From: Streptomyces endophytica
GTDB taxonomy: Bacteria; Actinomycetota; Actinomycetes; Streptomycetales; Streptomycetaceae
Assembly: GCF_026153355.1 (NCBI RefSeq)
Contig: NZ_CP110636.1
Location: 5,208,001-5,272,000 of the forward strand
Length of the DNA: 64,000 bases
Direction of reading: 5' to 3'
Shown: positions 8,116 through 43,540 of the stretch, piece by piece
Layout: the number at the start of each line of letters is the position of its first letter
How positions within the stretch are numbered: position 1 is the first letter of the stretch
Program-made: the position numbers and the translations under genes
The notes under the pieces: model-generated
Database searches by the model: none
Told to the model about the DNA's origin: nothing
What the model saw: only the letters and a program-made list of their open reading frames with translations

Positions 8116-8164
8116 AGACCGAACGGCAGGTCGGCGTCCCCTCCTTGCCGACATGCCGGCCGGA

Positions 8165-8203
8165 TGCCCCGGAACCGCCAGGCCTTCGCCGGGTTCCGGG
8201 GCA
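8165..8203 (+). terminator. 12-bp stem-loop between precursor and exporter genes
   Basis: TGCCCCGGAACC (8165-8176) pairs perfectly with GGTTCCGGGGCA (8192-8203) around a 15-nt loop. It sits 50 bases after the precursor stop and before the adaptor gene. Such partial terminators commonly keep precursor mRNA more abundant than exporter mRNA. There is no obvious U-tract, as is usual in Streptomyces. Confidence 0.6.
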
Positions 8204-8317
8204 CCCGGCTGCCGAGCCCCGGACCCGACACCGTACGCTCGGCCCCACCGCGGTGGCCGGGACGGGCGCCGGGTCCGTGAAGTCCTGACAGTCCTTTGCA
8301 GTTGAGGGAAGAGTGTC

Positions 8318-11403: not shown

Positions 11404-11404
11404 G

Positions 11405-14283
11405 GTGTCAGCCCTGCCCCCGTTCCCGCACGCGGGACCCGGCGAGACCGACGCGGTGACGCAGGCCCTCGGCGGCCTCGGCACGCCCGTCGACTGCGCC
11501 GGACTGCGCAGCGTCCCCCTCGAAGGGCCGCACGTGCTGTGGCTGGTCACCGCCGGCGTGCTCGACCTGTTCGCGGTCGACGCCGCGGCGGAGGGCCACT
11601 GGCACTTCCTGGGCCGGCTCGAACCCGGCGCCCTGCTCCTCGGCCCGGTCGACGGCCCCCAGCACACCCTGCTCGGCCGCCCCTCGCAGGACTGCGCGGT
11701 GCGCCGGATCCCGCTGCGCGAGCTGCCCCGTTGGGACTACGGCGGGTACGGCGAGCAGGCCGACACCGGTCCGCAGCCGCTGTACGCCGCGCCCGGCGGC
11801 TACGGCCACCCCGCGGCGTACGGCCCGCTGGAGCACGCCTTCGCGCTGGGCACCGCCCGCAGCCTCGGCGTGCTCTTCGAGGCCCCGCTGGACGGCCGGC
11901 CCGGCGACGAGGCGGTGGCCGACGACGACGTCCTCTGGATGCCGGTCCCGCCCGGCAGCGTCCAGTACGGTGCCTCCTACAGCGCGGAGGCGGCCGCCGA
12001 CCTGCTCGTCGACCCCGAGCTGTGGCAGCGGATGGTCAACCAGCAGTACCGGCTGCTGTCCGCCGTCGACCGCTGGATCGAGCAGCTGGAGCGCGCCCAC
12101 GAGGACCGTACGGCGGCCGGCATCAAGGCCGGTGAGGCCGTCCGCGAGCGCGCCGACCAGGCGCTGCTGGCCTCCATCGGCCGCCAGGACCGCGCCGCGC
12201 GGGGCGGCTCCGGGTCGGACCGGGGCGACGACACCACCTTCGCGGTCTGCCGCACGGTCGCCGAGGCCGCCGGGATCACCCTCACCGAGCCCCCAGGGGC
12301 GGCGCCGTCAACGACCGCATCACGCCCGTCGAACGGATCGCGGTCAGCTCCCGGATCCGCACCCGCGCGGTCCGGCTCACCGGCACCTGGTGGCGGACCG
12401 ACAGCGGCCCCCTGGTCGGCCACCGCGCCAAGTCCGGCGCCCCCGTCGCGCTGCTGTGGCGCCGCGGCCGCTACGAGGCGGTCAACCCCGCCTCCGGCCT
12501 GCGGATGCGGATCGGCAAGGACAACGCCGACGAGTTCGAGGCCCGCGCCGTCATGTTCTACCGCCCGCTGCCCGAGCGGCCGATGAACATGTGGCGGCTG
12601 ATGCGCTTCAGCCTGCGCGGCACCCGCACCGACGTCCGCAACCTCGCCCTCAGCGGACTGGTGACGGTCGCCCTCGGCGCCCTCGTCCCGATCGCGACCG
12701 GCAAGGTCCTCGGGGTGTACGTCCCGGCCGCCGACAAGGGCCTCATCGTGCAGGTCGCGCTGGCCGTCATCATCAGCAGCGTGGTCGCCGCCGCCTTCAT
12801 GCTGCTGCAGAGCCTCACCGTGCTCCGCATGGAGGGCCGCATAGAGAGCGCCCTGCAACCGGCCGTCTGGGACCGGCTGCTGCGGCTGCCGACCAAGTTC
12901 TTCACCGAACGCTCCACCGGCGAACTGGCCAGCGCCGCGATGGGCATCAGCGCCATCCGGCGGGTGCTGTCCGGCATCGGCCCGGTGGCCGTGCAGTCCA
13001 CGACCGTCGGCGCGATGAACCTCGTCCTGCTCCTCGTCTACAGCGTGCCGCTGGCGCTCGCCGCGCTCGGCATGCTGGTCGTCATCGGCGCGGTCTTCCT
13101 CATCATGGGCCTGTGGGAGCTGCGCTGGCAGCGACGGCTGATCAAGCTGTCCAACAAGCTCAACAACCAGGCGTTCCAGACCCTGCGCGGACTGCCCAAG
13201 CTGCGGGTCGCCGCGGCCGAGAGCTTCGCCTACGCCGCCTGGGCCCGGGAGTTCGCCCGGTCGCGGGAGCTCCAGCAGAAGGCCGGCCGGATCAAGAACC
13301 TCACCACCGTCCTCAACGCCGTCTACCTGCCGCTGTGCTCGCTGACCCTCTTCATGCTGCTGGCCGGCCCGGCCCGCGGCACCATGTCGGCCGGCTCGTT
13401 CCTCACCTTCAACACCTCGGTCACCATGCTGCTGACCTCGGTCACCCAGATCACCGGCGCCTTCGTCTCGGCCGCCGCCGCCCTGCCGATGTTCGAACAG
13501 ATCAGGCCGGTGCTGGACGAGGCACCCGAGGTACGCGGCGCCAGCGCCCAGCCCGGCACCCTCACCGGCGCCATCGAGGCCAAGAAGCTCTCCTTCCGCT
13601 ACACCGACGACGGCCCGCTCGTCCTCGACGACATCTCGCTCCAGGTCCGCCCCGGCGAATTCGTCGCCGTCGTCGGCCCCAGCGGCTGCGGCAAGTCCAC
13701 CCTGCTGCGGCTGCTGATCGGCTTCGACAAACCCACCTCCGGCAGCGTCCTCTACGACGGCCAGGACCTCGGCGCCCTGGACCAGGCCGCGGTCCGCCGC
13801 CAGTGCGGGGTCGTCCTGCAGAACGCCCAGCCGCTCACCGGCTCCATCCTGGACTGCATCTGCGGCGCCGAGTCCTTCACCCAGGAGGAGGCCTGGGCGG
13901 CCGCCGAGATGGCGGGCCTGGCCGAGGACATCAAGCGGATGCCGATGGGCCTGCACACCATGATCTCCGGTGGCGGCGCGATCTCCGGCGGGCAGCGGCA
14001 GCGCCTGATGATCGCCCAGGCCCTGGTCCGGCGGCCGCGGATCCTCTTCTTCGACGAGGCCACCAGCGCCCTGGACAACGAGACCCAGCGCATCGTCATC
14101 GACAGCACCCGCAAGCTCAGCGCCAGCCGGCTGGTGATCGCCCACCGGCTCTCCACCGTCATGGACGCCGACCGGGTGATCGTCATGGACGACGGCCGGA
14201 TCGTCGAGCAGGGTGCCCCGGCCACGCTCCTCGCCGACACCGGCGGCCGGCTGCACGACCTGGTGCGCCGTCAGCTGACCTGA
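11405..14283 (+). CDS. NHLM-type bacteriocin export ABC transporter permease/ATPase (frame interrupted)
   Basis: The second ABC half-transporter of the system begins at GTG 11405, one base after the previous stop. A long N-terminal cytoplasmic region (residues 1 to about 400) with no peptidase carries WWRTDSGPLVG and PVALLWRRGRYEAVNPASG. An ABC membrane domain follows, then a nucleotide-binding domain with Walker A GPSGCGKST, signature ISGGQRQR and Walker B ILFFDEATSALD. The frame breaks at the C run 12290-12294. One extra C joins TEPP to RGGAVNDRITPVERIAV and gives about 960 residues, the size expected for this NHLM subunit. In characterised NHLM loci this protein partners the C39-type exporter, probably as a heterodimer. 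The break is probably a sequencing indel. Confidence 0.87.
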
Positions 14284-17966: not shown

Positions 17967-18940
17967 TCACCCCGCGGCCACGAAGTGGCTCGGCCGGCCG
18001 TCCCGCAGCACCGGCCGGCCGAGCCGCTCGGCCTCCGCACGGTGCCGCAACTCCCGCCTGCCGTCCGGGTGTTCCAGTACGCACGAGTGCCAGGGCGTCA
18101 GCCAGACGTCCGGCGCCGCCAGCAGCCGGATCCCGAACTTCGCCGCGCCGCGCGGCTGCGGATGGATCGAGAGCCGGACCGCGCCCGGGTGGTGCCGGGC
18201 GACCAGCTCGCCCCAGGCGTGGCTGCGCCGCATCACCCCGTACGCGCGCCGGCGGCAGTCGCGCTGCAGCGCCGAACGGGTGCCGGCGAACGCGGCGGTG
18301 TCCTCGAAGAGGAACCGGGTGATGCCCTGGTACAGCCGGCGGGTCGGCTCGTGGCCGCGGGTCCGGGCGCGCAGCGCCTCCAGCGTGGGGCGTACCGTTC
18401 GTCGACCAGCGCCCGCCGGGCGTCGTACGACAGCCCGGGCCCGTACACCGCCCGCAGGTCGAAGACGTCCAGCCGGGTCAGCCCCTCGGCGCGGATCAGG
18501 GCGCGCAGGGCGTCACCGTAGGCGTCGACGGCGTGGTCGGGCACGTGGATGAGGTCGCTGAAGACGTGCCCGTCCGAGCAGATGACCACCCGTGCGCCGG
18601 GTGGATGGACGGCCTCGATCCGCGCGCAGAGCGCGTCCAGGAAGCGCAGGGCCAGCCGCTCGCCCTCGTCGGGCAGCGGGCCGAGCACCTTGGCCGGGTT
18701 CGGCGACTTGCAGGGGAAGCCCGGGAGCGTGAACACGATCGGCTCGCCGGCCGCCACCGGACCCATGAGCTGCCGGTACTGCTCGGGGAACGCGTCCGGC
18801 CCGTCCCCGCCCGCGGTGTCCAGCGTCCGCCGGTACGGCAGGAGGACGGCGAGCACCGCCGCGCACACCGCCCCGGGGTCGGCGGGCGGCGGGAGAACGG
18901 CGGGACGGGCGGGCAGCACCCGGTCGGGGCGGGTCAGCAC
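17967..18940 (-). CDS. Isonitrile synthase, PvcA/Dit1 family (frame interrupted)
   Basis: Enzymes of this family convert the amino group of L-Tyr or L-Trp (or similar) to an isonitrile, using ribulose-5-phosphate as carbon donor. The GTG start at 18940 overlaps the P450 stop. Diagnostic blocks are VFTLPGFPCKSPNPAKVLGPLPDEGERLALRFL and ARVVICSDGHVFSDLIHV. The C-terminal part contains RLSIHPQPRGAAKFGIRLL and WLTPWHSCVLEHPDGR. The frame breaks at the four-base G run 18387-18390 (C run on the coding strand). One extra base joins VDERYAPT to LEALRA and yields about 324 residues, the family norm. No PvcB-type oxygenase is adjacent; a P450 is the partner instead. The substrate amino acid is not predictable. 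The break probably reflects sequencing error. Confidence 0.85.
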
Positions 18941-20253
18941 GCGGCGTCCGCCCCGTCCGCGAACCGCCCCGCGGTGAACGGGCAGCCGCCCCCGGAGGCC
19001 GTACCGACGGCGTTCTCGTCGGCGTCCCCGGCGGCTCCGTACGCCACCGGCAGCCGGTCGACGCCCCGTGCCAACACCGCGGGGAGCCAGGTGAGTTGGT
19101 CGTCCGGTGCGGCGAACCGGAGCCCGGGGAGCCGTCGGAGCAGCGTCTCCAGGGCGATCTGGAGTTCGATCCGGGCGAGCGTGGCACCGGGGCAGAAATG
19201 GATGCCGTGGCCGAAGGCCAGATGCGGGTTGGGGGAGCGGCCGAGGTCGAGGCGGTCGGCGTCGGCGAACCGGCGCGGGTCCCGGTTCGCCGCGCACAGC
19301 GACACGATGACGGAGTCGCCGGCCGGGACCCGGGTGCCGTGCAGATCGGCGTCCTCGGCGAAGAACCGCCAGGTCGTCAGCTCGAAGGCACTGTCGTACC
19401 GCAGCAGTTCCTCCACCGCACGCGGCAGCAGCTCCGGACGGGCGGCCAGCTCGGCGAGCTGCCGCGGGTGGCGCAGCAGGGCGACCAAAGCTGTGGTGAT
19501 CTGGTTCGTGACCGGTTCCTGCCCGGCCACCAGCAGCTGGAAGATCATCGAATCCAGCTCCGCCGGCTCGATCCGGCCGTCGTCGCACGCGGCCACCAGC
19601 CGGGACAGCAGATCCGCGCCGCGCTCCCGGCGCTTGTGCGCGACCAGACCGGCGATGTACCCCTCCAGCCCGCGCAGCCGCGCCTCGTACGCCGGCCGGC
19701 CCGGGTCGGTGGGCCCCACCGGCTGGACCACCTTGCCCCAGTCCCGGTCGAAGCGGTCCGCGAACTCCGCCGGCAGGCCGATCACTTCGGCGAGGACCCG
19801 GAAGGGGAAGCGGGCCGCGAAGGTCTCCACGAGGTCGGTGCGGCCGCTCGCCGGCAGCCCGTCGAGCAGCGCCTCGGCCAGCTCCTGGAAGCGGGGCCGG
19901 AGCGCCTCGACGCGCGACGGGGCGAAGGTGTCGGTGAGGAGCCGGCGCAGCGCGGTGTGCCGGGGCGGATCCTGGTGCAGCAGATGCACCTGGAGCCGGG
20001 AGCGCTGCGGCTCGGGCATGATCGAGGCGCGGGCCCGCCAGGCCGCGTTGCCCCGGGAGTGGTGCTTGCCCAACCGCGGGTCGGTCAGCGCCTGATGGGC
20101 GGCCTCGTAGCCGGTGACGAGCCAGGCGCACACCCCGCTGGGGAACCGCACCCGGTGCACCGGGCCGCGCGCCCGCAGCTCGGCGTACAGCGGATACGGA
20201 TCTCGGGTGTAGTCCGCCCCGTAGAGCTCGACGGGCTCGGGCAATCTGGACAT
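18934..20253 (-). CDS. Cytochrome P450
   Basis: A 439-residue soluble actinobacterial P450. ATG 20253 follows GGAGGAA by 6 nt; the longer GTG version at 20268 would include that ribosome site. The haem-binding loop is FGHGIHFCPGATLARIE, with the Cys ligand near residue 355. The K-helix ExxR is EELLR, and the I-helix reads LLVAGQEPVTNQ, where the usual acid-alcohol pair (E/D-T) is E-P. That change can alter oxygen activation and is seen in some P450s doing unusual chemistry. A 30-residue tail ends in Cys. It overlaps the isonitrile synthase start by seven bases, so the two must be co-translated. Tailoring or dimerising an isonitrile product, as in yeast Dit1/Dit2, is an attractive inference. 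Confidence 0.92.
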   Translation of the reverse strand: MSRLPEPVELYGADYTRDPYPLYAELRARGPVHRVRFPSGVCAWLVTGYEAAHQALTDPRLGKHHSRGNAAWRARASIMPEPQRSRLQVHLLHQDPPRHTALRRLLTDTFAPSRVEALRPRFQELAEALLDGLPASGRTDLVETFAARFPFRVLAEVIGLPAEFADRFDRDWGKVVQPVGPTDPGRPAYEARLRGLEGYIAGLVAHKRRERGADLLSRLVAACDDGRIEPAELDSMIFQLLVAGQEPVTNQITTALVALLRHPRQLAELAARPELLPRAVEELLRYDSAFELTTWRFFAEDADLHGTRVPAGDSVIVSLCAANRDPRRFADADRLDLGRSPNPHLAFGHGIHFCPGATLARIELQIALETLLRRLPGLRFAAPDDQLTWLPAVLARGVDRLPVAYGAAGDADENAVGTASGGGCPFTAGRFADGADAAC

Positions 20254-20522
20254 GGGTGTTTCCTCCACGGCACTGACCGGTGACCGCCGTGCGCGAACGG
20301 CACGGCGTGGGAGAGGTCGGTCGCGGAGCGCGTCGAGTTCCCGCCGTACGCCGGCGAATCCGGCGGAAGGGGGAGCGGCGGAGGGCGAACGGGGGTGCGG
20401 GCAAACCCAGTTAGTCGGCCGGTGACGCCACCGGGTTCCGGTGCCGCAACAGGATGAACCTCACGTGCCAAAGGCCCCCCGATCGGCCGCTCCGCCCCGC
20501 GTCCACCTGCCACGATGACGCG

Positions 20523-20804
20523 ATGTCCCGTTCTCCGGCCGACCGCAGTCGGCCCCCGCACCGCACGCTCGCCGCCCGCCTGCTGCCCGCCCGGCCGGTG
20601 CTCGGATTCATCGCCCTGCTGGCCGTCCTCTTCGCCCTGTCCTACGCGGCCGGAACGCTCGCCGGCCCGGTCGCCCCGGGCCTGCACCCGGCCGGCGGCA
20701 CCCGCGGCGGCGACCACGCGCCCGCCGACGACGGGGACATGGGCGGTATGCACGGCATGGGCGCCCCCGCGCCCCGCCCGCTCGTCGCGGGAGCCCCGCG
20801 ATGA
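20523..20804 (+). CDS. Small Met/His-rich membrane protein of copper operon
   Basis: A 93-residue protein starting at ATG 20523. It has one transmembrane segment (residues about 26-50, LGFIALLAVLFALSYAAGTLAG) and an outward C-terminal tail containing HAPADDGDMGGMHGMG, a likely Cu(I)/Cu(II)-binding Met/His cluster. Its stop overlaps the CopA start (ATGA at 20801), so it is coupled to the copper ATPase. I do not know a named family. The position and composition suggest periplasm-side copper binding or delivery to or from the ATPase. A good ribosome site is not obvious; an upstream in-frame ATG at 20454 is possible but adds an implausible tail. Confidence 0.7.
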   Translation: MSRSPADRSRPPHRTLAARLLPARPVLGFIALLAVLFALSYAAGTLAGPVAPGLHPAGGTRGGDHAPADDGDMGGMHGMGAPAPRPLVAGAPR

Positions 20805-23103
20805 CCGCCCGTACGACCACCCTCACCATCGGCGGGATGACCTGCGCCGCCTGCGTGGGCCGGGTCGAGCGGAAACTCGGCCGGCTGGACGGCGTCGCGG
20901 CCTCGGTCAACCTGGCGACCGGCCGGGCCACCGTCCAGCACCCGGACGCGGTGTCCGTCGACGACCTCGTCACCACCGTCGAGGCGGCCGGCTTCACCGC
21001 GCAGCTCCCGGAACCGGAGACGCCGCAACCACCGGACGGCGAGCGTCAGTTGACGACGCCGGACGACGACACCCGCGGCGCCCGCCACCGGCTGCTGGTC
21101 ACCGCCCTGCTCTCGCTGCCCGTCCTGGTCCTGTCGATGGTGCCCGGCTGGCAGTTCCGCCACTGGCAGTGGCTGTGCTTCGTGCTCGCCGCCCCGGTCG
21201 CCGTATGGGGCGCGGCCCCCTTCCACGCCCGTGCGCTGCGCGGACTGCGGCACGGCGCCGCGACCATGGACACCCTGGTCTCGCTCGGCGTGACCGCGTC
21301 CTTCGGCTGGTCGGCGTGGGCGCTGTTCCTCGGCGGGGCGGGCGCGCCCGGCATGACGATGCCCTTCAGCCTGCTGCCCACCGCGGGTGACGGCAGTGCG
21401 CACCTCTACCTCGAAGCCGCCGTCGGCGTACCGCTGTTCGTGCTGGCCGGCCGGCACATGGAGGCCAGGGCCCGGCGCGGCACCGGCGCCGCACTGCGGG
21501 CGCTGGCCGAACTCGCCGCCAAGGACGTCGCCGTACGGGTGGCGGGGAGGAGCGGCGCATCCCGGTGGAGCGGCTGCGGGCCGGCGACCACTTCCTGGTC
21601 CGGCCCGGGGAACGGGTCGCCACCGACGGCACCGTCGTCACCGGCGGCTCCGCCCTGGACCTGTCCCTGATCACCGGCGAGAGCCGCCCGGTCGAGGTCG
21701 GCCCGGGCTCGGCGGCGTCCGGCGGGGCGCTCAACTCCGGCGGGCTGCTGGAGGTACGGGCCGACGCGGTCGGCGCCGACACCCAGCTCGCCCGGATCAC
21801 CCGGCTCGTCGAGGACGCCCAGACCGGCAAGACCCGGATCCAGCGGCTGGCCGACGCGGTGGCCGCGGTCTTCGTCCCCGCGGTGCTGACGGTCTCGGTC
21901 AGCGTCCTCGGCTTCTGGCTCGGCGCCGGCGCCGACCCGCAGGCCGCGGTCACCGCGGCGGTCGCCGTCCTCGTCGTGGCCTGTCCGTGCGCCCTCGGCC
22001 TGGCCACCCCGACCGCCCTGCTCGCCGCCACCGGCCGCGGCGCCCAGCTCGGCATCCTGGTCCGCGGCCCGCAGGCGCTGGAACGGCTGCGCCGGATCGA
22101 CACCGTCGTCCTCGACAAGACCGGCACCCTCACCGCCGGCCGGATGACCGTCACCGCCGTCACCGCCCGCACCGACGGCCTCGGCCCGGACACCGCGCTG
22201 CGCCTGGCGGCCGGCGTCGAACAGGGCTCGGAACACCCGCTGGCCCGCGCCGTCACCACCCGCGCCCGCGACCGCGGCCCCGGCCAACCCCTGCCCGCCG
22301 TCAGCGACTTCACCGCCCTGCCCGGCCACGGCGTACGGGGCACCACGGACGGGCACCGCGTCGAGGTCGCCCGGCCCGGCGACCCCGCCGGGCTGCCGGC
22401 CCCCCTCGCGGACGCGGTGCACGAGGCCGGAACCGCCGGCCACACCGCCGTCCTGGTCACCGTCGACGGCACCCCTGAGGCCGTCCTCGCGGTCGGCGAC
22501 GCGCTGCGCCCCGACAGCTACCGCGCCGTCGACCACCTGCGCCGGCTGGGCCTGCGCCCGGTCCTGGCCACCGGCGACCGCGCCGCCACCGCCCGCGCGG
22601 TCGCCGGCCACCTCGCCATCACCGAACTGCACGCCGACGTGACGCCCGAGGACAAGGCCGCCCTGGTCACCACCCTCCAGCAGCAGGGCGCCCGGGTCGC
22701 GGTGGTCGGCGACGGCGTCAACGACGCGGCCGCCCTGGCACTGGCCGACCTCGGCATCGCCATGGGCAGCGGCACCGACGCCGCGATCGGCGCCGCGGAC
22801 GTCACCCTCGTCCGCGAGGACCTGCAGGCCGTCGCCGACGCGGTACGCCTGGCCCGGCGCACCCTGGGCACCATCCGGGCCAACCTCGTCTGGGCCTTCG
22901 GCTACAACCTCGTCACCGTGCCGCTCGCCGCCGTCGGCCTGCTCAACCCGATGCTCGCCGCCGCCGCGATGTCCGCCAGCTCCCTGCTCGTCGTCGGCAA
23001 CAGCCTCCGGCTGCGCGCCTGGCAGCCCGGCGGCGGACCGGCCCGGCCGGGCCGCGGCAGCACCGGCCGCCGCACCACCACCGCACACCGGGAGACCGCA
23101 TGA
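20801..23103 (+). CDS. Copper-translocating P1B-type ATPase (frame interrupted)
   Basis: A P-type ATPase exporting Cu(I). The N-terminal heavy-metal-associated domain has GGMTCAACVGRVE. Membrane helices follow, then the A-domain LITGESRPVEV, the CPC motif ACPCALGLATP in the ion-binding helix, the phosphorylation site VVLDKTGTLTAG, the HP locus SEHPLA and the hinge GDGVNDAAAL. All are intact. Frames change at the G run 21544-21547. One extra G joins AVRVAGE to ERRIPVERLRAGDHF and restores about 767 residues, normal for CopA/CtpV. It overlaps the Met/His-rich protein gene before it and the PCuAC chaperone gene after it (ATGA at 23100), forming a copper operon. The break looks like a homopolymer error. 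Confidence 0.9.
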
Positions 23104-23817
23104 CACGGCTGCCCGCGGCCACCGTCGCCGTACCCCTGCTCACCTGCCTGGCGACCCTCGGCGCCCTCACCGCCTGGACGGCGGCCGGCCGGGCCGGCAC
23201 CCCCCCGGATGGAGGTCACCGACGGCCGGGTGCTGGTCCCGTCCGGCCCCGAGGCCACCGCCGCGTTCCTCACCGTCCGCAACACCGGCGACGCGGACGA
23301 CGTCCTCACCGGTGTCACCGGCCCCGGCGGGCACCGGGCGATGCTCGGCCGTTCCGCCGACATCGGCCACAACGCCCGCAGCATGGCCATGGTCCGCACC
23401 GCCGCCGTCCCGGCCGGCGGCACCCTGCGGATGACGCCGGCCACCCTGGACATCATGATCAGCCCGCCGCCGCGGCTCGCGCCCGGCGACCGGCTCACCC
23501 TCACCCTGCACTTCCGCGACAGCCCCCCACGGACCGTACGGGCCACCGCCGTACGCCCCGGGGAACTCCGCACGGACGGGGCCCAGGGACCGGCCGCGCC
23601 CGTCCCTGAGCCCCCTCGCCGTGGCGGGCGCGGTCCGGCCGTCAGGCCACCGCGCCCGCCAGCGCGCACGGCCGGTCGGCCGGCTCCGGCCGCTCAGCCT
23701 CCGCCAGCAGCGCCACCAGCGTCTCCCGGGCCCGCGCCACCCGGGACCGTACGGTTCCGATCGGGCAGCCCATCACCCCGGCGGCCGCCGCGTACGGCAG
23801 CCCCAGCACCTGGGTGA
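23100..23817 (+). CDS. PCuAC family copper chaperone, secreted (frame interrupted, end uncertain)
   Basis: The start ATG overlaps the copper ATPase stop. A signal-like N-terminus (LPAATVAVPLLTCLATLGAL) is followed, after a frame change at the seven-C run 23200-23206 (one C too many), by the DUF461/PCuAC domain. That domain reads MEVTDGRVLVPSGPEATAAFLTVRNTGDADDVL, then AMLGRSADIGH, MAMVRTAAVPAGGTLRM and LDIMISPPPRLAPGDRLTLTLHF. These proteins bind Cu outside the membrane through an H/M-x10-M-x21-H-x-M motif. Here the usual HxM is DIM, so one ligand is replaced. After PGELRTDG the frame turns Pro/Arg-rich and runs 176 bases into the antiparallel sigma-factor gene. The true end is therefore probably near 23600 and may hide a second indel. 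Confidence 0.7.
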
Positions 23818-24235
23818 GCAGGAACGCCTCCCGCCGCTCCGGCGCCAGCGCCGCCAGCAGCCCGGTCAGCGCGATGCCCTCGTCGAAACCGGGCAGCCCG
23901 CGCGGCTGCACCCGCTCGGCCGCCGCCTGCCAGTCGTCGGTCGCGGCCAGCCGCGGCCGCACCGCATGCGACCGGAACCGGTCCGCCACCACCCGCCGGG
24001 CGATGGTGAGCAGCCAGGTCCGGGCCGAGGACCGGCCCTCGAACCGCGGCAGACTGCGCAGCGCCCGCACATAGGTGTCCTGCACCAGGTCGTCGGTGGC
24101 CTGCGGATCGCCGCTGAGATGCGTCACATAGCGCCGCACGTCGAGCTGGGTGGCCCGGACGAACTGCTCGACGGCCCGCTCGTCACCGGTCCGGGCGGCC
24201 AGCGCCCAGCCGGTCACCGCCTCGTCATCCCGCAT
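23642..24235 (-). CDS. ECF-type RNA polymerase sigma factor
   Basis: A 197-residue sigma-70 family protein of the ECF group. Region 2 (residues about 20-90) includes DLVQDTYVRALRSLPRFEGRSSARTWLLTIARRVVADRFR. Region 4 (about 120-185) includes LAPERREAFLLTQVLGLPYAAAAGVMGCPIGTVRSRVARARE. ATG 24235 is used, and the divergent zinc-finger gene starts 50 bases away. This sigma/anti-sigma pair lies inside the copper block. A role in switching on copper-stress genes is plausible but not proven by sequence. Its 3' end is antiparallel to the end of the PCuAC frame, so one of the two annotated ends may be too long. Confidence 0.92.
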   Translation of the reverse strand: MRDDEAVTGWALAARTGDERAVEQFVRATQLDVRRYVTHLSGDPQATDDLVQDTYVRALRSLPRFEGRSSARTWLLTIARRVVADRFRSHAVRPRLAATDDWQAAAERVQPRGLPGFDEGIALTGLLAALAPERREAFLLTQVLGLPYAAAAGVMGCPIGTVRSRVARARETLVALLAEAERPEPADRPCALAGAVA

Positions 24236-24284
24236 TCCGCGACCGCCCCTCGCCGCCGGTCCGCGCTTCGGAGAGGATGGCGGT

Positions 24285-24599
24285 ATGCACTGCGCGCCCC
24301 TCCGTACGGCCCTCTCCGCCCGCCTCGACGGGGAGGAGCTGCCACCCGGCCTGACGCCACGCCTGCTCGACGACCACCTCGCCGGCTGCGCCGACTGCCG
24401 GCGCTGGGAGGCACGGGCCCGGGCCCTGTCGGCGCGGGTCGCGCAGGCGAGCGCGGAGGCCGCGCGGGCCCCGGAGGCCGGGGGTGACCCGGCGACCGTC
24501 GAGGCACTGCTCGCCGGGCTGCGGTCGCGCCCCGTATGGCCGAGTGGAGTCGAGTGCGCCTACGAGGAGGGGAAGACCGGAGGTACCGCCGCGGGCTGA
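24285..24599 (+). CDS. Zinc-finger anti-sigma factor (zf-HC2 type)
   Basis: A 104-residue protein starting at ATG 24285. Its core is the zf-HC2 motif DDHLAGCADCRRWEARA (His-x3-Cys-x2-Cys near residues 30-38). That motif binds zinc in ZAS-type anti-sigma factors and releases the sigma factor on a redox or metal signal. It is divergent from the ECF sigma gene with only 49 bases between starts, so the two probably share a control region. There is no transmembrane helix, so this would be a cytoplasmic sensor. The final 25 residues (SRPVWPSGVECAYEEGKTGG) look less conserved and may be read in a shifted frame. Zinc could be displaced by copper in this genomic setting (inference). Confidence 0.8.
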   Translation: MHCAPLRTALSARLDGEELPPGLTPRLLDDHLAGCADCRRWEARARALSARVAQASAEAARAPEAGGDPATVEALLAGLRSRPVWPSGVECAYEEGKTGGTAAG

Positions 24600-24731
24600 G
24601 GCCGCCTGGGCACCCCGCTCGCCGGCCACGGACACGGGCGGCGCCGCCACCGGCATCCGGACACGATTCATCATCTGGAGTCCTTCGCATGACCCGGTCC
24701 CCGCACACGGCGGTGACCGGTGAAGTCGGAG

Positions 24732-24765
24732 CGGGGACAGGAGGCGCGCCCGGCGCGCGTCCCCG
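24732..24765. terminator. Terminator hairpin between convergent genes
   Basis: CGGGGAC (24732-24738) pairs with GTCCCCG (24759-24765). An inner stem GCGCGC-CCG-GCGCGC (24744-24758) stacks inside it. It lies between the anti-sigma gene and the convergent Met-rich membrane gene. Confidence 0.55.
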
Positions 24766-24787
24766 GCTCGGGAATTCGACCGTGCTG

Positions 24788-25552
24788 TCAGCGGACAGCC
24801 GGCACCTGCGGCGGACCCCGCAGCGTCATCGCGTGGGCCAGCAGGAGCGTGCGCACCGCCCGGCGCGGCTCCTGACGCGCGGCGCGCACGGCCGGCGGCG
24901 CGTCGGGCAGGACGATCCGCAGCACCGGCGCCAGCGGCGCGAACAGCCGGGCCGACACGCTCCGGACGAGCCGGAAGGCGGCCCGCTCACCGCCCCACAA
25001 CCACCAGGCGCTGAGCAGCGCGACGAGGAGGTGGGCCGCGACCATGCCGGCCGCACCGCCGTGCGCCGCACCGCCCGGATGCGCCATGCCCGCCATGCCC
25101 GGCATCCCTGCCATGCCCGGCATCCCTGCCATGTCGTGGGTTCCGCCGGACATCCCGGGCATCGCGGCCATCTGGCGGTGCATCAGCCGCATCATCTCCG
25201 CGGCATCGCCCCCGGAGGCCGGCATTTCCCCGGCGCCGCACAGCAAGCTCTCCGCCCACTGCCGGACCAGGGGCACCTGCCCCCCACCGGATTGGGCCAT
25301 CGCCTGGCCGAGGGAGAAGGCGCTGTGCAGGGCGGTCTGGGTGCCGACGGTCAGCAGGCCGACGAGCAGCGGCCCGCGTTCCCGGCCCGCGACGCACCAA
25401 ACGCCGGCCGTGGTGGCCCCGCCGGCCGCGAGCAGCATCCACCCGGGCACCGCCGTACCGGACATCACCGAGTGACCCAGCGCGGCGAGCAGCACGCAGA
25501 CCACGGCGAACACCGCGGCCCGAAGCCCCCTGAGTACCTGCCCCGCAACCAT
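24788..25552 (-). CDS. Met-rich integral membrane protein (DUF5134-like)
   Basis: A 254-residue membrane protein read from ATG 25552; in-frame starts further upstream exist but would add an unlikely tail. Four or five hydrophobic helices are visible (VFAVVCVLLAALGH, MLLAAGGATTAGVWCV, GLLTVGTQTALHSAF, MVAAHLLVALLSAWWLW). Between helices, residues about 120-165 carry a dense Met/His loop with repeated MAGMPG units and MMRLMHRQM, resembling copper-binding Met clusters. The organisation matches DUF5134-like proteins that sit beside copper genes in actinobacteria. A copper-storage or transport role is inferred from the Met loop and from neighbours (copper ATPase, PCuAC, sigma/anti-sigma). No catalytic motif is seen. 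Confidence 0.75.
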   Translation of the reverse strand: MVAGQVLRGLRAAVFAVVCVLLAALGHSVMSGTAVPGWMLLAAGGATTAGVWCVAGRERGPLLVGLLTVGTQTALHSAFSLGQAMAQSGGGQVPLVRQWAESLLCGAGEMPASGGDAAEMMRLMHRQMAAMPGMSGGTHDMAGMPGMAGMPGMAGMAHPGGAAHGGAAGMVAAHLLVALLSAWWLWGGERAAFRLVRSVSARLFAPLAPVLRIVLPDAPPAVRAARQEPRRAVRTLLLAHAMTLRGPPQVPAVR

Positions 25553-25708
25553 GACGGGCCCATCGTCGCACCCCACCCCCGACACGGGGACGCCCGGGCA
25601 CCGATATGACGACCCGTCAGAATCCTGGCCGGGCCCTCCCCGTGAAATGCCTTGCCGGCCGGGCCGCTTCATGGCATCCTGACGTTAATGCAACTGAAGT
25701 AGCAGTAA

Positions 25709-26506
25709 GTGGTAGTCCTCCTTCACCCGGATATCCGTCTCCGACGCCGCCGCCGGTCCGTACGCGATCGCCGCCGCACCGGCGATGTCGTCTCCCGGCG
25801 CCCGGACGGCGTGCTCGACTACCACGGCCGTACGGACGACCAGGTGAAGGTGCGCGGCTTCCGGATCGAGCCGCAGGAGGTCGAGTACGCACTACGGGAG
25901 CAGCCCGAGGTGGCCGACGCGGCCGTCACCGTGCACCGCCCCTCCCCCGACGACGCCCGGCTGGTCGCCTTCGTCGTCGCCGCACCCGGCCCGGTCCCCC
26001 GGCCGGACGCCCTGCGCGACCGGCTGGCCGCGGCCCTGCCCGCCCATCTGGTACCCGACGAACTGACCGTCGTCGCCGACCTGCCGCTCAACCCGTCCGG
26101 CAAGGTCGACCGCCGCGCGCTGGCCGACCTGCTCTCCGCGCACGGGCCCGACAGTGCCGTGGGTTCAGAAGGTTCCGGCGGTGCAGATACGTCGGACGGG
26201 TCGCCGGCGTCCGCCCAGGACGGACCGCTGACGCCCCTGGAGCAGGCCGTCGCCGACGTCTGGAGTCGCTCCCTCGGCTGCGAAGTGACCCGGCCGGACG
26301 CCGACTTCCTCGCCCTCGGCGGCCACTCCCTGCTCGCCCTCGCCGTCACCGACGACCTCCGCGAGGAACTCGGCGTCGAGCTGTCGCTCGCCGACTTCTT
26401 CGGCTCCCCCACCGTGGCCGGCCAGGCCGCCCTGGTCGAGCGGGCATTGCTCGCCGCGCACGGTGATCTTCACCCGCACGCCCCGGAGGACACCGATGGC
26501 CACTGA
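25709..26506 (+). CDS. NRPS fragment protein: adenylation C-terminal lobe plus carrier domain
   Basis: A 265-residue protein beginning about GTG 25709. Homology starts abruptly at adenylation motif A7 ([13 protein letters not shown]), then A8 ([20 protein letters not shown]) and A10 ([14 protein letters not shown], catalytic Lys kept). A PCP follows with the phosphopantetheine Ser in [17 protein letters not shown] (near residue 213). Motifs A1-A6, including the ATP- and substrate-binding core, are absent. The DNA upstream is antiparallel to another gene, so they are not hidden in another frame. It overlaps the next NRPS gene by 11 bases. It could be a relic of recombination or a carrier protein loaded in trans. 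The exact start is uncertain because the first 20 residues are Arg-rich and unconvincing. Confidence 0.75.
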
Positions 26507-29501
26507 CCGCACCGCCGCCCCCGCCCTCCAGGAGGAGCTGCTGCGCCGGGCACGGGAACGCGCCGCGGCCCGCACCGCCACCGGCCCCGGTTCCGCCGAC
26601 CGCGGCCCGGCACCGCTCTCCCGCGCCCAGCACCGCATGTGGCTGATGGACCGGCTCGGTCACGACGGCGCTTCGTACAGCGTGCCGTTCGCCACCCGGC
26701 TGCGCGGCCCGCTCGACGTCGACGCGCTGGCCTCCGCACTGACCGGGCTCGTCCGCCGGCACGAGATCCTGCGCACCCGTTACGTACAGCGGAACGGCGA
26801 GCCGTGCCAGGAGGTGCTCCCGGCACCCGAGTCGATCGCGGTGCCGGTGGTCCCGGCCGACCCGGCGGAGGCCGCACCGCTGCTGGCCGCGGAGGCCCGC
26901 CGTCCGTTCGACCTCTCCGCAGGGACCGTGCCCCGCGCACTCGTCCTGCGACACGGCCCACAGGACCACACCGCGCTCCTGACGTTCCATCACATATCCC
27001 TCGACGGACCGTCCTTGGAGATCGTGGCGGAAGAGCTCGGCGCGCTCTACGAGTCCGCCGCCCGCTCCCGGGAAGCCGCCGCCACCGTGGCCGGATCCGG
27101 CCCCGCACAGCGGCAACCGCAGCCCCCGTCAGGGCCACATCCGCAGCCCCGACCGCCCCAGTACGCGGACTTCGCCCGGCACGAACACCGAGCCGCGGGC
27201 GACCGTCCCGACGAGGGCCTGCGGCACTGGCACGCCCTCCTCGACGGCGCCACTCCCCCGCGACTCCCCGGCCCCGCGCACCCGCCGGCCGACCTCACCG
27301 CCCGGCCCACCGGATCGCACACCACACCGCTCGCCCCCGAGGTGCCGGCCGCCCTGCGCGAGCTCGGCCGGCGCCACCGGGCCACGCCGTTCACCGTGGC
27401 GCTCACCGCCGCGTTCGCCGCCCTGCGCCGCGGTACCGGGCAGGACGACCTGGTGATCGGCATCGCCGGTACGCACCGCCGGGGAACGGCCATGCGCGGA
27501 CTGGTCGGGCTGTGCGTCAACACCCTCCCGCTGCGCGTCGACACCTCCGGTGACCCGTCCTTCGGCACGCTGCTGAAGCGGGTGCGTGCCGCCCTGCTCG
27601 ATGCCCAGCAGCACGCCGACGTACCGTTCGACGTCATCGTGGACCGGCTCGGCGCCGCCGCGCGGGGCGCGGACGGAACGTCCCTGGTGCGGGTGACCGC
27701 GGACGTCCTCGGCGCGCCGACGACGCTGCGTCTGCCCGGGACGGACGCGGAGTACGTCGAAGTCGGCGTGGGCGAAGCCAAGTTCGACCTCTCCTTCGGC
27801 CTCGTGGACACCGACCGGCCGGCCGCCCTGGTCCAGTACCGCCGCGCCGTACTGGACGAGAAGGCGGCCACCGGCCTCGGCGCCACCTACGCGGCCCTCC
27901 TGACCGCACTCGCGACCGCCCCGGACGACCTGCCGCTCTCTCAACTGCCCGACGCGGAGGGGGTCCAACTACCCTATGCGGCCGCTGAGTTGGATGAGAG
28001 CGACACGCACCCGGCCGAACGGATCCTGCGCTCCCACCCCCATCTCTCCGACGCCGCGGTGGTCTCCCCTCCCGGCGGGCCGCTGCTCGCCTACGCGGTC
28101 CTGCGGGAGATCGGGGGCCCGTCGCCCGCGGAGCTCCGCGCCCACCTGCGGGACCGCCTGGCACCCGACCTCGTACCGGCCGCCGTCACCCTGCTCGACG
28201 TCCTCCCCCGCGCCGCCGACGGCACGGTGGACCCGGCACGCCTTCCCGGTCTCCCCTCGCTGCCCGCACCCGAGGGACCCCACGCCGACGCCGTACGTGA
28301 GGGCTTCGCGGCGCTGCTGGGCCGCACGCCCGCCCCGGACGACGACTTCTTCGCGCTGGGTGGCCACTCGCTCGCCGCCGTCCAGCTCGCCGAACGCCTG
28401 CGTCGTGCGCTGACCCTGCCCCTGACCGGCCTGGACATCATGCAGGCCCGCACTCCCCGCGCGGTCTCCGCCCTCCTCGACGTGCGTGCGGCGGAACGCG
28501 CCGCCGCGTCCCTCCGGCCGGCCACCCGCCCGGGGCAAACGGAGCGCACGAGCCGGACAGCGGCGGGACGGTCGGGTCGCGCGCGGACGGGCACCGTACT
28601 GGTCACCGGCGCCACCGGCGGCGTCGGCAGCTTCCTTCTGCGGGAACTCGCCGCCCAGGGACGCCCCGTACTGGCCCTGGCCCGTCCCGAATCCGCGCAC
28701 CTGGTCGCGGCGGACGGGGTGGACGTCGTCGAGGGCGACCTCACCGACCTCGACGGGCTGCGCAAGGCCGTCCGGAGCGCGGACGCCGTCATCCACGCGG
28801 CCAGCACCTTCACCCGTCCCGAGGTGGACGTGGCGGCGCTGGACGCCATGGTGGACGCCTGGTCACGGGGCCCGTTCGTCTTCGTCAGCAGCGTGGACGC
28901 GTACGGGCATCCCGACGGCGGTCGGGTGGCCGAGGAGTCCCCCTCGCGCGAACCGCTCAGCCCCTACGGCCGGGCGAAGCTCGACTGTGAGGCGCGGCTG
29001 CTCCGGGCGGCCGGCACCGCGGGGCGGGGCGGCGCGAGCGCGGTCCGTTCCCCGCTGGTCTGGGGCCCGCACGACCGACTGCGCGACCAGTTGCGCTGGG
29101 GCGCCACCGGAGTGCTCTACCAGGCGATCCGCGAGGGCCGGCCGCTGGCCGTCCCCCGTCCGGGCGCCGGCGGCCACGGCTGGTACGGCGCCGCCTGGGT
29201 GCACGGCGCGGCGCTGGCCCGAGCGGTGGTCTCCTGCCTGGACGCCCCCGTCCACGGCGTGGCCAACGCCATCAGCGGCCACGTCTCCTGGCAGGACCTC
29301 GCCGCCGAGCTCTCCCCACTCCTTGGCGTAGCAGGTGAGTTGGAGGAATCGGACGAGGTCCACCCCGACCTGAACCACCACTGGCATTACGACTCCGACC
29401 GCCTGGCACGCTCCCTGCGCCCCCTACCCGGCGAAGACCTCGCTTCGGTCCTCGCCTCGATGATCACTCCGTCCCTGGACCGGCAGTCCACTGGAACATG
29501 A
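26496..29501 (+). CDS. NRPS-like protein: condensation, truncated adenylation lobe, carrier, SDR reductase
   Basis: About 1,001 residues from ATG 26496 (GGAGG upstream). A complete condensation domain ([15 protein letters not shown] at C1, HHISLDG active site near residue 167, ending about 480) is followed by a small adenylation C-lobe. That lobe lacks A1-A6 and its A10 reads [10 protein letters not shown], without the catalytic Lys. A PCP then has [21 protein letters not shown], with its Ser near residue 625. Last is an extended short-chain dehydrogenase domain ([16 protein letters not shown] nucleotide loop, [14 protein letters not shown] catalytic pair). The assembly could condense a substrate delivered on the preceding carrier protein and release or modify it reductively. 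No adenylating enzyme is encoded nearby, so loading in trans is inferred. Confidence 0.85.
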
Positions 29502-29619
29502 AGCTTTACCGATCGGTCGACCACTTGTCGTCGCAGGTCGGATAGCTTCCCCGCATCCATTGAACGCGAAGCGCGGACTCCTCCCACCCACACCGGAGGG
29601 GTCCGCCGGGAGGCATGTC

Positions 29620-29925
29620 GTGAGTGTCAGCAACCTCTTCCGGACCGCGGCCGCACTGCCGGACGCCTGGAGCTCCCGCCCCCTGGCCGAGGTGGGAACG
29701 GCCACCGTCAAAGTGCTCCGCATGAACGAACTCCCCCTGGAGGAAGAGGCCCACCGCACACCGGAGGTACTGCTCGTCCTCGACGGCGCCTTGGCGCTGA
29801 CCGTCGACGACGTCGAGGTCACGGTGGGCCCGGGCGAGATGTACCTGGTGGCGGCAGACACCCGCCACGCCGTGCGTCCGGGCAGCCACGGCACCCTGGT
29901 GATAGTCGAAGTGCCGGAGGAGTAA
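29620..29925 (+). CDS. Small cupin-domain protein
   Basis: A 101-residue single-cupin protein starting at GTG 29620 (GGGAGG 6 nt upstream). A beta-barrel pattern is visible: PEVLLVLDGALALTVDDVEVTVGPGEMYLVAADTRHAVRPGSHGTLVIVEV. The second cupin motif retains its His (TRHAV), but the first motif has Pro/Glu in place of the usual HxH, so the metal site may be incomplete. It lies 118 bases after the C-PCP-SDR protein on the same strand and may belong to that transcription unit. Cupins of this size act as isomerases, dioxygenases or binding proteins. No specific reaction can be assigned. Confidence 0.75.
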   Translation: MSVSNLFRTAAALPDAWSSRPLAEVGTATVKVLRMNELPLEEEAHRTPEVLLVLDGALALTVDDVEVTVGPGEMYLVAADTRHAVRPGSHGTLVIVEVPEE

Positions 29926-39401: not shown

Positions 39402-40600
39402 GGGGCGTCCTTCGCGGCGCGTTCCAGTGCCTGCTCCAGATCGGCGATGAGGTCGGCCGGGTCCTCGACGCCGATGGACAGCCGGAGCATGTCCTTGGGT
39501 GATGTGCTGTCCGGTCCCTCGAATGTGTAGCGGTGTTCAATCAGGCTTTCCACCCCACCCAGGGATGTGGCGCGAATGAACAGTTCGCAATGTTCGGCCG
39601 CGCGCAGCGAACGCGTCCAGTCACCGGCGATGTGCAGCGAGAGCATGCCGCTGTAGCCGCCGGTCATCTGCCGGGAGGCGACCTTGTGCCCCGGGTCGGT
39701 GGGCAGGCCCGGGTAGGCGACCCGGCTGACCAGCGGGTGGGCGGAGAAGTGCTCGGCCAGGGTCATGGCGGAGGCCGATATCTGGCGCATGCGCGGGAAG
39801 AGCGTCCGTATGCCGCGGAGCAGCAGGTACGTCTCCCAGGGGCCGAGGATCGGGCCGGTCAGCCGGCGGTGCAGGCGCAGCCGCTCCCAGAGCGCCTGGT
39901 GCTCCTCGGTCGGGTCCGGGGCCGCCACGAGGAGGCCGGCCACCACGTCGTTGTGGCCGTTCAGGTACTTCGTGCCCGAGTGCATGATCAGGTCGGCGCC
40001 GAGGTCGAAGGGCCGGGTGTGCACCGGCGTGGGGACGGTGTTGTCCACGCCGAACAGCGCGCCGGCCCGGTGGGCGATCTCGGCGCAGGCCTCGAGGTCG
40101 GTGACCAGCCAGGTCGGGTTGGCCGGGGATTCCGCCCACAGCAGGGTGGTCGGTGCCGCGTTGACCGCCTGGGCCACCGCGTCCAGGTCGTCCATCGGGA
40201 CGCGTACGACCTCCAGGCCGCGCTGCTGCCCGAACTCCAGCAACCACTTGGTGAGGCCGAAGTACATGGTCTGCGGCACCACGACCCGGGCCCCGGCGGG
40301 CAGGACCTGGAAGACGGCGGTGGCGGCGGCCATGCCGGAGGAGAAGACCAGCGCGTCGGAACCGCCCTCCAGTCCGGCGACGACGCCCTCCACCTGCTCG
40401 TAGCCCGGGGTGCCCTGGTCCCGCAGATAGGCGAGGCCGGCCGGGGTGCGGTACTGGTCGTCGCGGGCGAAGGTCGCCCCCATGCTCACCGGCGGCGGCA
40501 CGGCACCGGTGGTCGGGCAGCGCCAGCCGTCGCCCTGGGCGGCTCGGGTCTCGACGCGGTACTCCCGGGTCCAGGGAGTGTAGGTCTCGCGGTTGCTCAT
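39398..40600 (-). CDS. PLP-dependent trans-sulfuration family enzyme (cystathionine gamma-synthase/lyase-like)
   Basis: A 400-residue fold-type I PLP enzyme from ATG 40600, overlapping the FAD-protein stop (ATGA) and overlapped by benE. Motifs are TFARDDQYRTPAGLAYLRDQGTPGYEQVEGVVAGLEGG, SSGMAAATAVFQVL (phosphate-binding), LLWAESPANPTWLVTDL, FGVDNTVPTPV (PLP Asp), the Schiff-base Lys in MHSGTKYLNGHNDVVAG and the C-terminal SLGGVESLIEH. The family includes cystathionine gamma-synthase, gamma-lyase and methionine gamma-lyase, all acting on beta/gamma-substituted amino acids. Linked to diaminopropionate synthesis, it may perform a beta- or gamma-replacement or elimination on an unusual amino acid rather than methionine metabolism. 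This is inference. Confidence 0.88.
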   Translation of the reverse strand: MSNRETYTPWTREYRVETRAAQGDGWRCPTTGAVPPPVSMGATFARDDQYRTPAGLAYLRDQGTPGYEQVEGVVAGLEGGSDALVFSSGMAAATAVFQVLPAGARVVVPQTMYFGLTKWLLEFGQQRGLEVVRVPMDDLDAVAQAVNAAPTTLLWAESPANPTWLVTDLEACAEIAHRAGALFGVDNTVPTPVHTRPFDLGADLIMHSGTKYLNGHNDVVAGLLVAAPDPTEEHQALWERLRLHRRLTGPILGPWETYLLLRGIRTLFPRMRQISASAMTLAEHFSAHPLVSRVAYPGLPTDPGHKVASRQMTGGYSGMLSLHIAGDWTRSLRAAEHCELFIRATSLGGVESLIEHRYTFEGPDSTSPKDMLRLSIGVEDPADLIADLEQALERAAKDAP

Positions 40601-42528
40601 GATGTCCTCTTGGTCAGGGCCGGCAGGGCGGTGCGGAGGGCGAGTTCGGCGTCCTTCAGCGCGCGGGACGGCGCGCCGGGCGAGGGGACGTAGTGGTTGT
40701 AGTAGCTGGACCCCTCGGTGTGCGGGCCGAGGAAGAACAGCGTGCGCCGGACCTCCCCGGCGGGGCCGATGCCTTGTCCCTCGCGGGTGACGTGGAGTCC
40801 GGCGACCCGGGTGCCGCGCCGGGCCAGGGTGGCGACGCGGCCGGCCGCGACGAGCCGGCCCAGCAGCGAGGTGGGCAGCCGGTCCGCGCTCGGCTCGGCG
40901 ACGTGGGCGTGCACGACGTGTCCGACCTCGACGCTCTCCGGGCCGGCCAGGCAGGTGGACTCCAGGCGCCACGGGCCCCGGCCGCACGGGGCGATGACCT
41001 TCGGGCGCGGCCCGGGGCCGAGCCGCAGCACGCCGGCGTCCAGCAACGACAGCAGTTCCGCCGACCGGTCCAACTGAGGGCCGATCACCAGGCGGTTGAC
41101 GGCGGAGTTGAACTCCCCGAAGAAGTGGTCCAGCGAGGGGTCGTCGACGCCCGGCGGGTCGATGACGGCCCGGAGGATGTCGCGGTGGTCGCGCAGCACC
41201 TCCAGGGCTTCCTTGACGGGGCTGGCGCCCAGCCCTTCGCGGGCCTCGGCCAGGTCGTCCGCGACCCGGGCGGCGAACCACTCGGCGTACGCCGCCGCGT
41301 CGGCCCACTGCCGGTCGGCGGGCTCCTCGGTCAGCACGCCGTGCAGCGGGTACGGCCCGAACTCCTCCCGTGCGGCGGCCAGCGCCCGGTCGCCGCCCGA
41401 GGTGGCCACCCGATGGGCGAACTCCGCGGCCGCGCCCGCGGCATCGCCCGTCCTGCGGGCCAGGACGGTGCGGTAATAGGTCAGTTCCATCTCGGCCTCG
41501 ACCAACGGCAGTACGTCGTCGAGGAAGTCGAGCCGACCGTCCGCACGCTGCCGGCGCAGGGCCTCGATCCGGTCCGTCGTCAGGACGAGGGGCGCGAAGC
41601 GCGCCCGGCCCGGGTTGAGGTGCGGACGGCTGCGCGAGGGCATCCCGGAACGGTTGGCCAGCACGATCCACGGTTCGCGGCCGCTGGGTACGTACCGCAG
41701 CCGTCCGCCGTCGTCCGCCGGTTCGTGCCGGCCACCGCGTCCCAGCGTCAGGCTGGCGATCACGTCCATGGCGGTCAGTCCCATGCCCAGCACGGCGACG
41801 TCGTCGCCGGGGGCGATGCTGTCCAGGGCGTCGGGCAGCGGGTAGGGGAGGGTGATCAGGCCATGGCCGGCGGGCGGTTCGGGCTGGGCGGCGGCCGGGA
41901 GGTGCAGGGTGTGGTGGCCGACGGTCACGAAGACCGCGTCGGCCTCCAGGTGGGTGCCGTCGTCGAGGAGGACGACCTCGCCGCCGTCCTCGCCCGGGCG
42001 GATGTCGGTGGCCGTGGTGGCGTGCCGCATCAGGGCGAAGCAGGGCGGTGCGGCGGCGACGATGCGCTCGGCCGCCCAGGTGAGGTATGCGCTCAGCAGC
42101 CTCCGGGGGAGGAAGTCGTTCGGCCGGATCTCCCGGCCCTCCCCCGCCCGTACGGTGTAGCCGTCCGCGCCCAGCCGCAAGTCCCTCTCCTGGCACCAGG
42201 CGTGGAGGGACGGGCCGCTGATCCCCGTGGGGCCGTCCACCATCTCGTCGTCCGCGAAGGCGGTGATCTGCGCGCACACCGTGTTGAGCAGGAGGTGGTC
42301 GGGCTGGTCGCGGAGGTGAAAACCGGGGCCGAGGGGCTGGGGGTCCACGAGGTGGACGGTGACCGGGAAGGGCTCCGCCAGGCACTGGCTGACGAGCCGC
42401 TCCACGATGCCCAGCCCGCGCGAGCCGGCGCCCACGATCGCGAGGGTGGTGTGCCGTTCGGCGTCCCGGGTGCCCGCCGGGGCTCCCGCGCGCTGCCCGT
42501 GGTCCGTGTACTGCTCCGTCGTTACCAC
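40597..42528 (-). CDS. FAD/NAD(P)-binding oxidoreductase (PF13454-type), function unknown
   Basis: A 643-residue flavoprotein-like enzyme starting at GTG 42528, overlapping the sbnB stop by seven bases. The first Rossmann motif is TTLAIVGAGSRGLGIVERL (near residue 30). Next come a conserved FHLRDQPDHLLLNTVCAQ segment and a second dinucleotide motif VAVLGMGLTAMDVIASLTLGRGG near residue 250. The C-terminal half contains FFGEFNSAVNRLVIGPQLDRSAELL and ends with FFLGPHTEGSSYYNHYVPSPG. Proteins of this type occur in siderophore and amino-acid natural-product operons, but the reaction is not established. N-hydroxylation or amino-acid oxidation are possibilities. It is the third of five tightly coupled genes, so it probably acts on a diaminopropionate-derived molecule. 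Confidence 0.82.
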   Translation of the reverse strand: MVTTEQYTDHGQRAGAPAGTRDAERHTTLAIVGAGSRGLGIVERLVSQCLAEPFPVTVHLVDPQPLGPGFHLRDQPDHLLLNTVCAQITAFADDEMVDGPTGISGPSLHAWCQERDLRLGADGYTVRAGEGREIRPNDFLPRRLLSAYLTWAAERIVAAAPPCFALMRHATTATDIRPGEDGGEVVLLDDGTHLEADAVFVTVGHHTLHLPAAAQPEPPAGHGLITLPYPLPDALDSIAPGDDVAVLGMGLTAMDVIASLTLGRGGRHEPADDGGRLRYVPSGREPWIVLANRSGMPSRSRPHLNPGRARFAPLVLTTDRIEALRRQRADGRLDFLDDVLPLVEAEMELTYYRTVLARRTGDAAGAAAEFAHRVATSGGDRALAAAREEFGPYPLHGVLTEEPADRQWADAAAYAEWFAARVADDLAEAREGLGASPVKEALEVLRDHRDILRAVIDPPGVDDPSLDHFFGEFNSAVNRLVIGPQLDRSAELLSLLDAGVLRLGPGPRPKVIAPCGRGPWRLESTCLAGPESVEVGHVVHAHVAEPSADRLPTSLLGRLVAAGRVATLARRGTRVAGLHVTREGQGIGPAGEVRRTLFFLGPHTEGSSYYNHYVPSPGAPSRALKDAELALRTALPALTKRTS

Positions 42529-43523: not shown

Positions 43524-43540
43524 GAAAAACACACCTCTCC

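Follow-up and report, generated by a model that had tools for sequence, protein, structure and literature searches.

A conserved A-less terminal NRPS module beside the cut-off tail of an A-PCP gene at a probable chromosome arm joint in Streptomyces endophytica

The stretch of DNA analysed here (the window) comprises 64,000 nucleotides of Streptomyces endophytica (NZ_CP110636.1, positions 5,208,001 to 5,272,000) and contains two adjacent open frames encoding truncated NRPS proteins, referred to below as protein one and protein two, whose positions as given in the initial annotation were confirmed (Table 1). Pfam assigns AMP-binding_C and PP-binding domains to protein one, and Condensation, AMP-binding_C, PP-binding and Epimerase-type SDR domains to protein two. 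The adenylation (A) core (PF00501) was found by Pfam in neither protein, in agreement with the initial annotation, and the gene overlap noted there is also genuine, as 44 bases are common to the two listed frames and the same overlap is present in the intact S. nigrescens copy. The two proteins were, however, wrongly said to share a remnant of A7/A8-like sequence. With the A-domain motif names and limits of the NRPS literature, pattern matching finds A7 (RTGD), A8, an A9-like stretch and A10 including its lysine in protein one, whereas none of the A7, A8, A9-like and A10 patterns matches protein two, in which the lobe begins past A8. Elsewhere in the window, a 77-aa frame with a double-glycine-like leader (judged by eye) lies beside two ABC transporters, one of them of the Peptidase_C39 type (7882-14283, plus strand), an arrangement that looks like a bacteriocin/RiPP export locus.

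Table 1. Coordinates, within the window, of the two NRPS frames, their domains and the adjoining junction
Feature	Start	End	Strand	Remarks
Left-arm gene adjoining the junction	24788	25672	-	No Pfam match; inside block 18332-25710
Protein one	25709	26506	+	Open frame spanning the junction; 3' remnant of the A-PCP gene that is NRPS3 of the intact cluster
Left-arm side of the junction	25734	25776	+	42/43 bases shared with the 5' portion of the NRRL S-337 gene at L098 7392-8363 (Vgb_lyase family)
Junction	25774	25776		3 bp (CCG) common to left-arm and right-arm sequences
C-terminal part of NRPS3 A domain	25775	26113	+	Protein one; A7 to A10, lysine present
PCP of protein one	26243	26437	+	Pfam
Protein two	26496	29501	+	C-lobe-PCP-reductase; likely ATG at 26496, open frame from GTG at 26463
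Condensation domain	26610	27929	+	Protein two; HHISLDG
Vestigial A C-lobe	28017	28220	+	Protein two; AMP-binding_C only, without A7/A8, A10 lysine replaced
PCP of protein two	28290	28478	+	GGHS carrier serine
Terminal extended-SDR reductase domain	28587	29498	+	Protein two

Homologues of protein two were collected one per locus, 16 from a first set of 24 (the eight left out being 29-36% identical) followed by 3 and 19 more, and these 38 together with the window give 39 rows. The last 22 homologues came from the better NRPS3 matches, those of lower quality and a single match lying at a contig edge being left out; L099 was set aside as a copy of L017, and other strains may occur in both collections. 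No A core was seen in any of the 38 homologues: neither the A3 nor the A8 pattern occurs in any row, and no row has the length that a complete A domain would require in addition to its other domains. Among the 16 members scanned with Pfam (15 homologues and the window), PF00501 is found in none and the lobe in 13. The C motif is present in 38 of the 39 rows, and the terminal R domain is an extended SDR of about 300 aa with both TGxxGxxG and YxxxKxxxE in 37, the two misses being one cut-off and one frameshifted copy. The strict carrier pattern matches 30 rows; two of the nine misses (L031 and L137) are broken and the other seven retain FFxLGGHS with a different residue before it. L137 (genome G012), in which the frame breaks past the C domain, is either another decayed copy or an assembly error. 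Comparison of protein two with its S. nigrescens homologue (L022) gives a dN/dS of 0.42 for the C domain and 0.41 for the R domain, with no clear sign of relaxation. As far as these sequences indicate, protein two belongs to an old, conserved family from which the greater part of one domain disappeared early on.

A structure model of the reductase domain (pLDDT 86.8) has the extended-SDR fold upon structure comparison. The matches listed are mostly sugar epimerases and plant reductases, and no NRPS R domain is among the best 50 matches of each fold list, beyond which one may be present. The reductase sequence matches MxaA weakly (E 7e-4), and Pfam NAD_binding_4 is found in 2 of the 16 members scanned. 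For protein two as a whole, the mean pLDDT is 77.2 (72-87 in the lobe) and the pTM is 0.47, so that the arrangement of its domains is uncertain, and the C domain dominates the Foldseek matches obtained with the whole model.

The vestigial lobe could be identified in 34 of the 39 rows, including the window and a partial copy in L031. It is absent from four rows (L029, L030, L032 and L141), which keep C, PCP and R, and the remaining row, L137, frameshifted after the C domain, was not counted for the lobe. In all 34 lobe-bearing rows the A10 lysine is replaced, and the four lobe-less rows form one side of a branch with an SH-aLRT of 99 in a quick tree. Over 12 pairs, the dN/dS of the lobe is 0.04-0.65 as compared with 0.23-0.43 for the C domain, values that point to purifying selection on the lobe. 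The best explanation is that the lobe descends from a complete A domain of long ago and has been retained chiefly for its structure. Alternatively, it may be a working docking platform that brings a partner A domain to the PCP, a possibility that we hold only tentatively. The dN/dS values and the wide retention of the lobe agree with such a role, as does the suggestion that neighbouring C domains act as a platform in the fungal NRPS SidC (PMC10192304), but the clade of four rows that does without the lobe still retains C, PCP and R. More specifically, the orphan lobe of antipain-type synthetases might conceivably persist because partner A domains use it as a landing site without catalytic function, and represent a step between full-A and fully A-less modules, although we consider this rather doubtful; if true, one clade has already lost the landing site.

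In all 16 loci examined for gene content (L017-L032), the protein two homologue (NRPS4) occurs together with NRPS1 (C-A-PCP), NRPS2 (A-PCP) and NRPS3 (A-PCP), some of them partial or split: NRPS4 is partial in L031, 76% of NRPS3 is covered in L027, and NRPS3 is split over two frames in L021. Genes for three A-domain proteins therefore stand with the homologue in each of the 16 loci. Pfam finds the A core in NRPS1, NRPS2 and NRPS3 of L022, the sole locus so scanned. Read by eye at the GrsA positions, the specificities of NRPS1-3 are presumably Arg-like, unclear and Val-like, respectively, and were not used as evidence. A free-standing C-like gene, the fifth NRPS gene, lies upstream in all 16 loci (partial in one) and matches the C domain of NRPS1 in a profile comparison (97%, E 2.9e-11); Pfam alone gives an E of 0.0075. 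EHHXXHDG, reported as a signature of ureido-forming C domains (PMC11212132), has one match in each of the 16 loci, lying within NRPS1 in the eight that were aligned. The cupin gene at 29560-29925 was considered as an operon member and rejected, being present only in L022 among the 16 loci. For protein two, the closest relative is S. nigrescens HEK616, whose NRPS locus is carried by a record (L077; NZ_AP026074.1, 95-144 kb) that is named plasmid SNP1 and called a linear plasmid; in the relatives G080 and G310, the NRPS locus of SNP1 sits on the long main contig.

The intact relatives have five NRPS genes and three A domains, and the same numbers are described for the omicsynin (omn) cluster, itself described as generally homologous to the deimino-antipain (anp) and chymostatin clusters (PMC12783407). 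The intact relatives, which also have the ureido-type C motif, fit clusters of this type. The terminal omicsynin protein, OmnF, carries at its end a short reductase of the extended-SDR type; this unusual R domain, about 300 residues long, is reported to be required for the aldehyde and to be without the helix-turn-helix of other NRPS R domains (PMC12783407). Protein two is the counterpart of OmnF by architecture, and its terminal SDR fits this release reductase, in line with the reductive release that had been envisaged from the sequence of the window. The likeness extends to size, as omnF was amplified as 2847 bp and protein two has 3006 bp; in contrast, an A lobe, present in protein two, is not mentioned in the part of the OmnF description consulted (PMC12783407). 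Among the titles listed by literature searches on truncated A domains, which covered open papers, none concerned antipain clusters.

In the intact relatives, an absent A core is combined with a carrier and a C motif in NRPS4 and with partner A domains in the cluster. The terminal PCP would most likely be loaded in trans by one of these A domains, the C domain would join the peptide to the amino acid on this PCP, and the SDR domain would free the product as an aldehyde. The three partner A-domain proteins found in every locus fit trans loading of the carrier of protein two, and the trans loading and aldehyde release proposed for the intact relatives, which are most likely by analogy, follow published work on omicsynin and capreomycin. 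CmnI of the capreomycin pathway, which is without an A domain, is loaded in trans by the A domain of another module, and CmnI/VioI (capreomycin/viomycin) represent the same C-plus-carrier module without an A domain (PMC12400406). Foldseek, too, lists CmnI as a match to protein two, the aligned stretch being about the size of a C domain. It lacks the A domain, and the part of the account available mentions no reductase, whereas protein two keeps both an A lobe and a reductase (PMC12400406). Partial A domains are described for module 2 (dA) of fungal SidD/Nps6, where the SidD carrier is loaded by another A domain (PMC10192304), and for the terminal module of glidonin GdnB, where C is followed by a partial A, a T and a release domain (PMC10587159). 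These likenesses are drawn from the available descriptions; SidD and GdnB belong to other organisms and products, and GdnB has TE domains where protein two has an SDR.

Protein one differs from protein two in having a full-length counterpart in relatives. At the equivalent place, S. nigrescens HEK616 SNP1 (L022) and NRRL S-337 (L017) carry an A-PCP gene with a full A domain, whose A core was confirmed by Pfam in L022. DNA homology starts abruptly at window 25774 in all five relatives aligned and in three further ones. To the right of the junction the identity to SNP1 is 94% over 12 kb and 97% over 1.7 kb more, and a 24.5-kb query reaching window 49000 is 89% covered at 95.4% identity. On the left side, the block at window 18332-25710 has 93% identity to contig C10 of NRRL S-337, a different contig from that of its cluster. 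Codons 1-22 of protein one are left-arm DNA and not NRPS sequence, corresponding in part to the start of a virginiamycin-B-lyase-family gene read in a different frame, and the GTG start of protein one is probably spurious. By this comparison, protein one is what remains of the 3' end of an A-PCP gene, and it probably has no function. The full A domain in the closest relatives and the sharp junction are what the initial annotation had named as speaking against its own interpretation, and for the A domain of protein one they do so.

The alignments indicate that the joint removed an MFS gene, the free-standing C-like gene, the C-A-PCP gene, the first A-PCP gene and most of the next. Compared with the intact clusters, nothing ahead of the final third of NRPS3 survives in the window copy, and of the NRPS gene set the NRPS3 tail and NRPS4 are all that remain. 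The missing cluster DNA was not found in the strain's own genome in searches that scored 40 candidate places each: beyond 109 retained bases, the listed matches longer than 200 bases are only 64-70% identical. The matches are paralogue-like, with short ones reaching higher identity. A frameshift as the cause of the short A domain of protein one was rejected because A sequence appears in none of the upstream frames inspected and the genome lacks the missing DNA. A tRNA was likewise rejected as the cause of the breakpoint, as none lies within the 64-kb window.

A DNA search across the junction covered 295 genomes, from which four relatives with good matches on both sides were chosen. G080 and G310, whose contigs measure 8.5 and 8.6 Mb, carry one side near 0.85 Mb and the other near 8.0-8.1 Mb, both in the same orientation. 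A distance of 1.1 Mb separates the sides in G153, and in G210 they fall on different contigs; where both are on one contig, the separation ranges from 1.1 to 7.3 Mb. We paired 46 of the 66 tRNAs of the S. endophytica genome with those of G080 by score and order, which together with the two flanks gives 48 points. These fall on two inverted lines against G080, with position sums of 6.08-6.59 Mb for the 44 markers left of the joint and 13.37-13.48 Mb for the four markers to its right. As the three right-hand tRNA pairs were matched by order, equally scoring partners being present elsewhere, the right-hand line was checked by DNA alignment, which is independent of the pairing. Seven of ten right-hand stretches probed match G080, all inverted and with sums of 13.44-13.49 Mb (6.08 to 6.83 Mb of the S. 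endophytica contig), and three (at 6.40 Mb, 6.87 Mb and the contig end) have no G080 match in the places tried; a single stretch probed on the left-hand side falls at its expected place. In G080, the counterpart of the contig start is at 6.55 Mb and the last right-hand match lies at 6.63 Mb, so that the contig returns to within about 76 kb (in G080 coordinates) of its beginning. Collinearity reaches 6.83 Mb of the 6.90-Mb contig, with no match in the last ~70 kb where probed and no useful match to the last 6 kb in four relatives. DNA similar to window 40597-44524 (minus strand) lies near the left-arm flank in G080 and G310 and to the right of the NRPS genes in the window; this segment encodes a PALP enzyme, an ornithine-cyclodeaminase-like protein and an FAD/NAD(P)-binding protein, and is like 2,3-diaminopropionate (SbnA/SbnB) genes.

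No match to the telomere-protein gene tpg was found in the S. endophytica genome, as against at least one in each of four relatives, and the DNA that neighbours the left side of the joint in relatives is absent from it. In the assembly, the arms are joined, without the neighbouring end-side DNA of both sides and without tpg. From gene order and these absences, which point to a circularised chromosome without both ends, we infer that the chromosome is circular and has lost both ends. Arm joining with loss of large end segments is reported for Streptomyces both as a spontaneous event and after loss of a tap-tpg plasmid (PMC3905888, PMC8743545); here the same joined arms and lost ends are deduced from one assembly.

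This reading of the chromosome draws on one public and possibly indel-rich assembly, a single contig with a completeness of 82.63% and with several NRPS A and C domains split between frames. The incompleteness and the split frames suggest poor quality and could be taken to mean that the joint at 25774 is a chimera of assembly, the strain having an intact cluster and a linear chromosome. This is unlikely: a misjoin based on overlap would presumably need more than the 3 bp common at the joint, the assembly contains neither the missing cluster parts nor tpg nor the DNA that should adjoin either side, and the contig returns close to its start. It is similarly improbable that a smaller rearrangement (a deletion, an inversion or a plasmid integration) put left-arm DNA beside the cluster and left the chromosome uncircularised: the plasmid name of the HEK616 record and the last ~70 kb, unmatched where probed, so that contig end and start may not adjoin, would allow for it, but on either side of the joint the gene order follows the G080 chromosome with one and the same reading direction, and tpg is missing. 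Fusion of the arms, in our view, very probably cut an antipain/chymostatin/omicsynin-type protease-inhibitor peptide cluster at 25774 with a 3-bp microhomology, leaving its 3' end in the window with protein two as its A-less terminal module.

The arm joining would have left the NRPS3 tail and protein two without intact partners, and in this strain protein two is probably an orphan and the pathway dead, its loss of function being ascribed to the missing partners only. That proteins one and two form one evolved A-less module with substrates loaded in trans and residual lobes as linkers, as was initially proposed, is highly improbable: protein two alone fits, given its A-less architecture conserved in 38 homologues and its partner A-domain proteins, but the counterparts of protein one in relatives possess a full A domain, its 5' end here is left-arm DNA, and the two lobes are unlike in how far they extend and in whether the A10 lysine is present. 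The two truncated A domains are both real but of unrelated origin, and the proteins are not one evolved module. As protein one was cut at the arm joint and protein two is anciently A-less, the argument that one and the same lobe would not be lost two times by random decay is inapplicable to what are two unrelated events.

The kind of cluster, the kind of truncation and the kind of chromosome event are all already known. Their coincidence at this locus illustrates that a striking pair of truncated enzymes can arise from two unrelated histories, and the joint adds one more sequence-level candidate for a Streptomyces arm fusion, here hitting a biosynthetic gene. For the family of protein two, a lobe that is present in most homologues and missing in one clade offers a natural set in which to ask which part of the A domain a trans-loaded carrier still needs.
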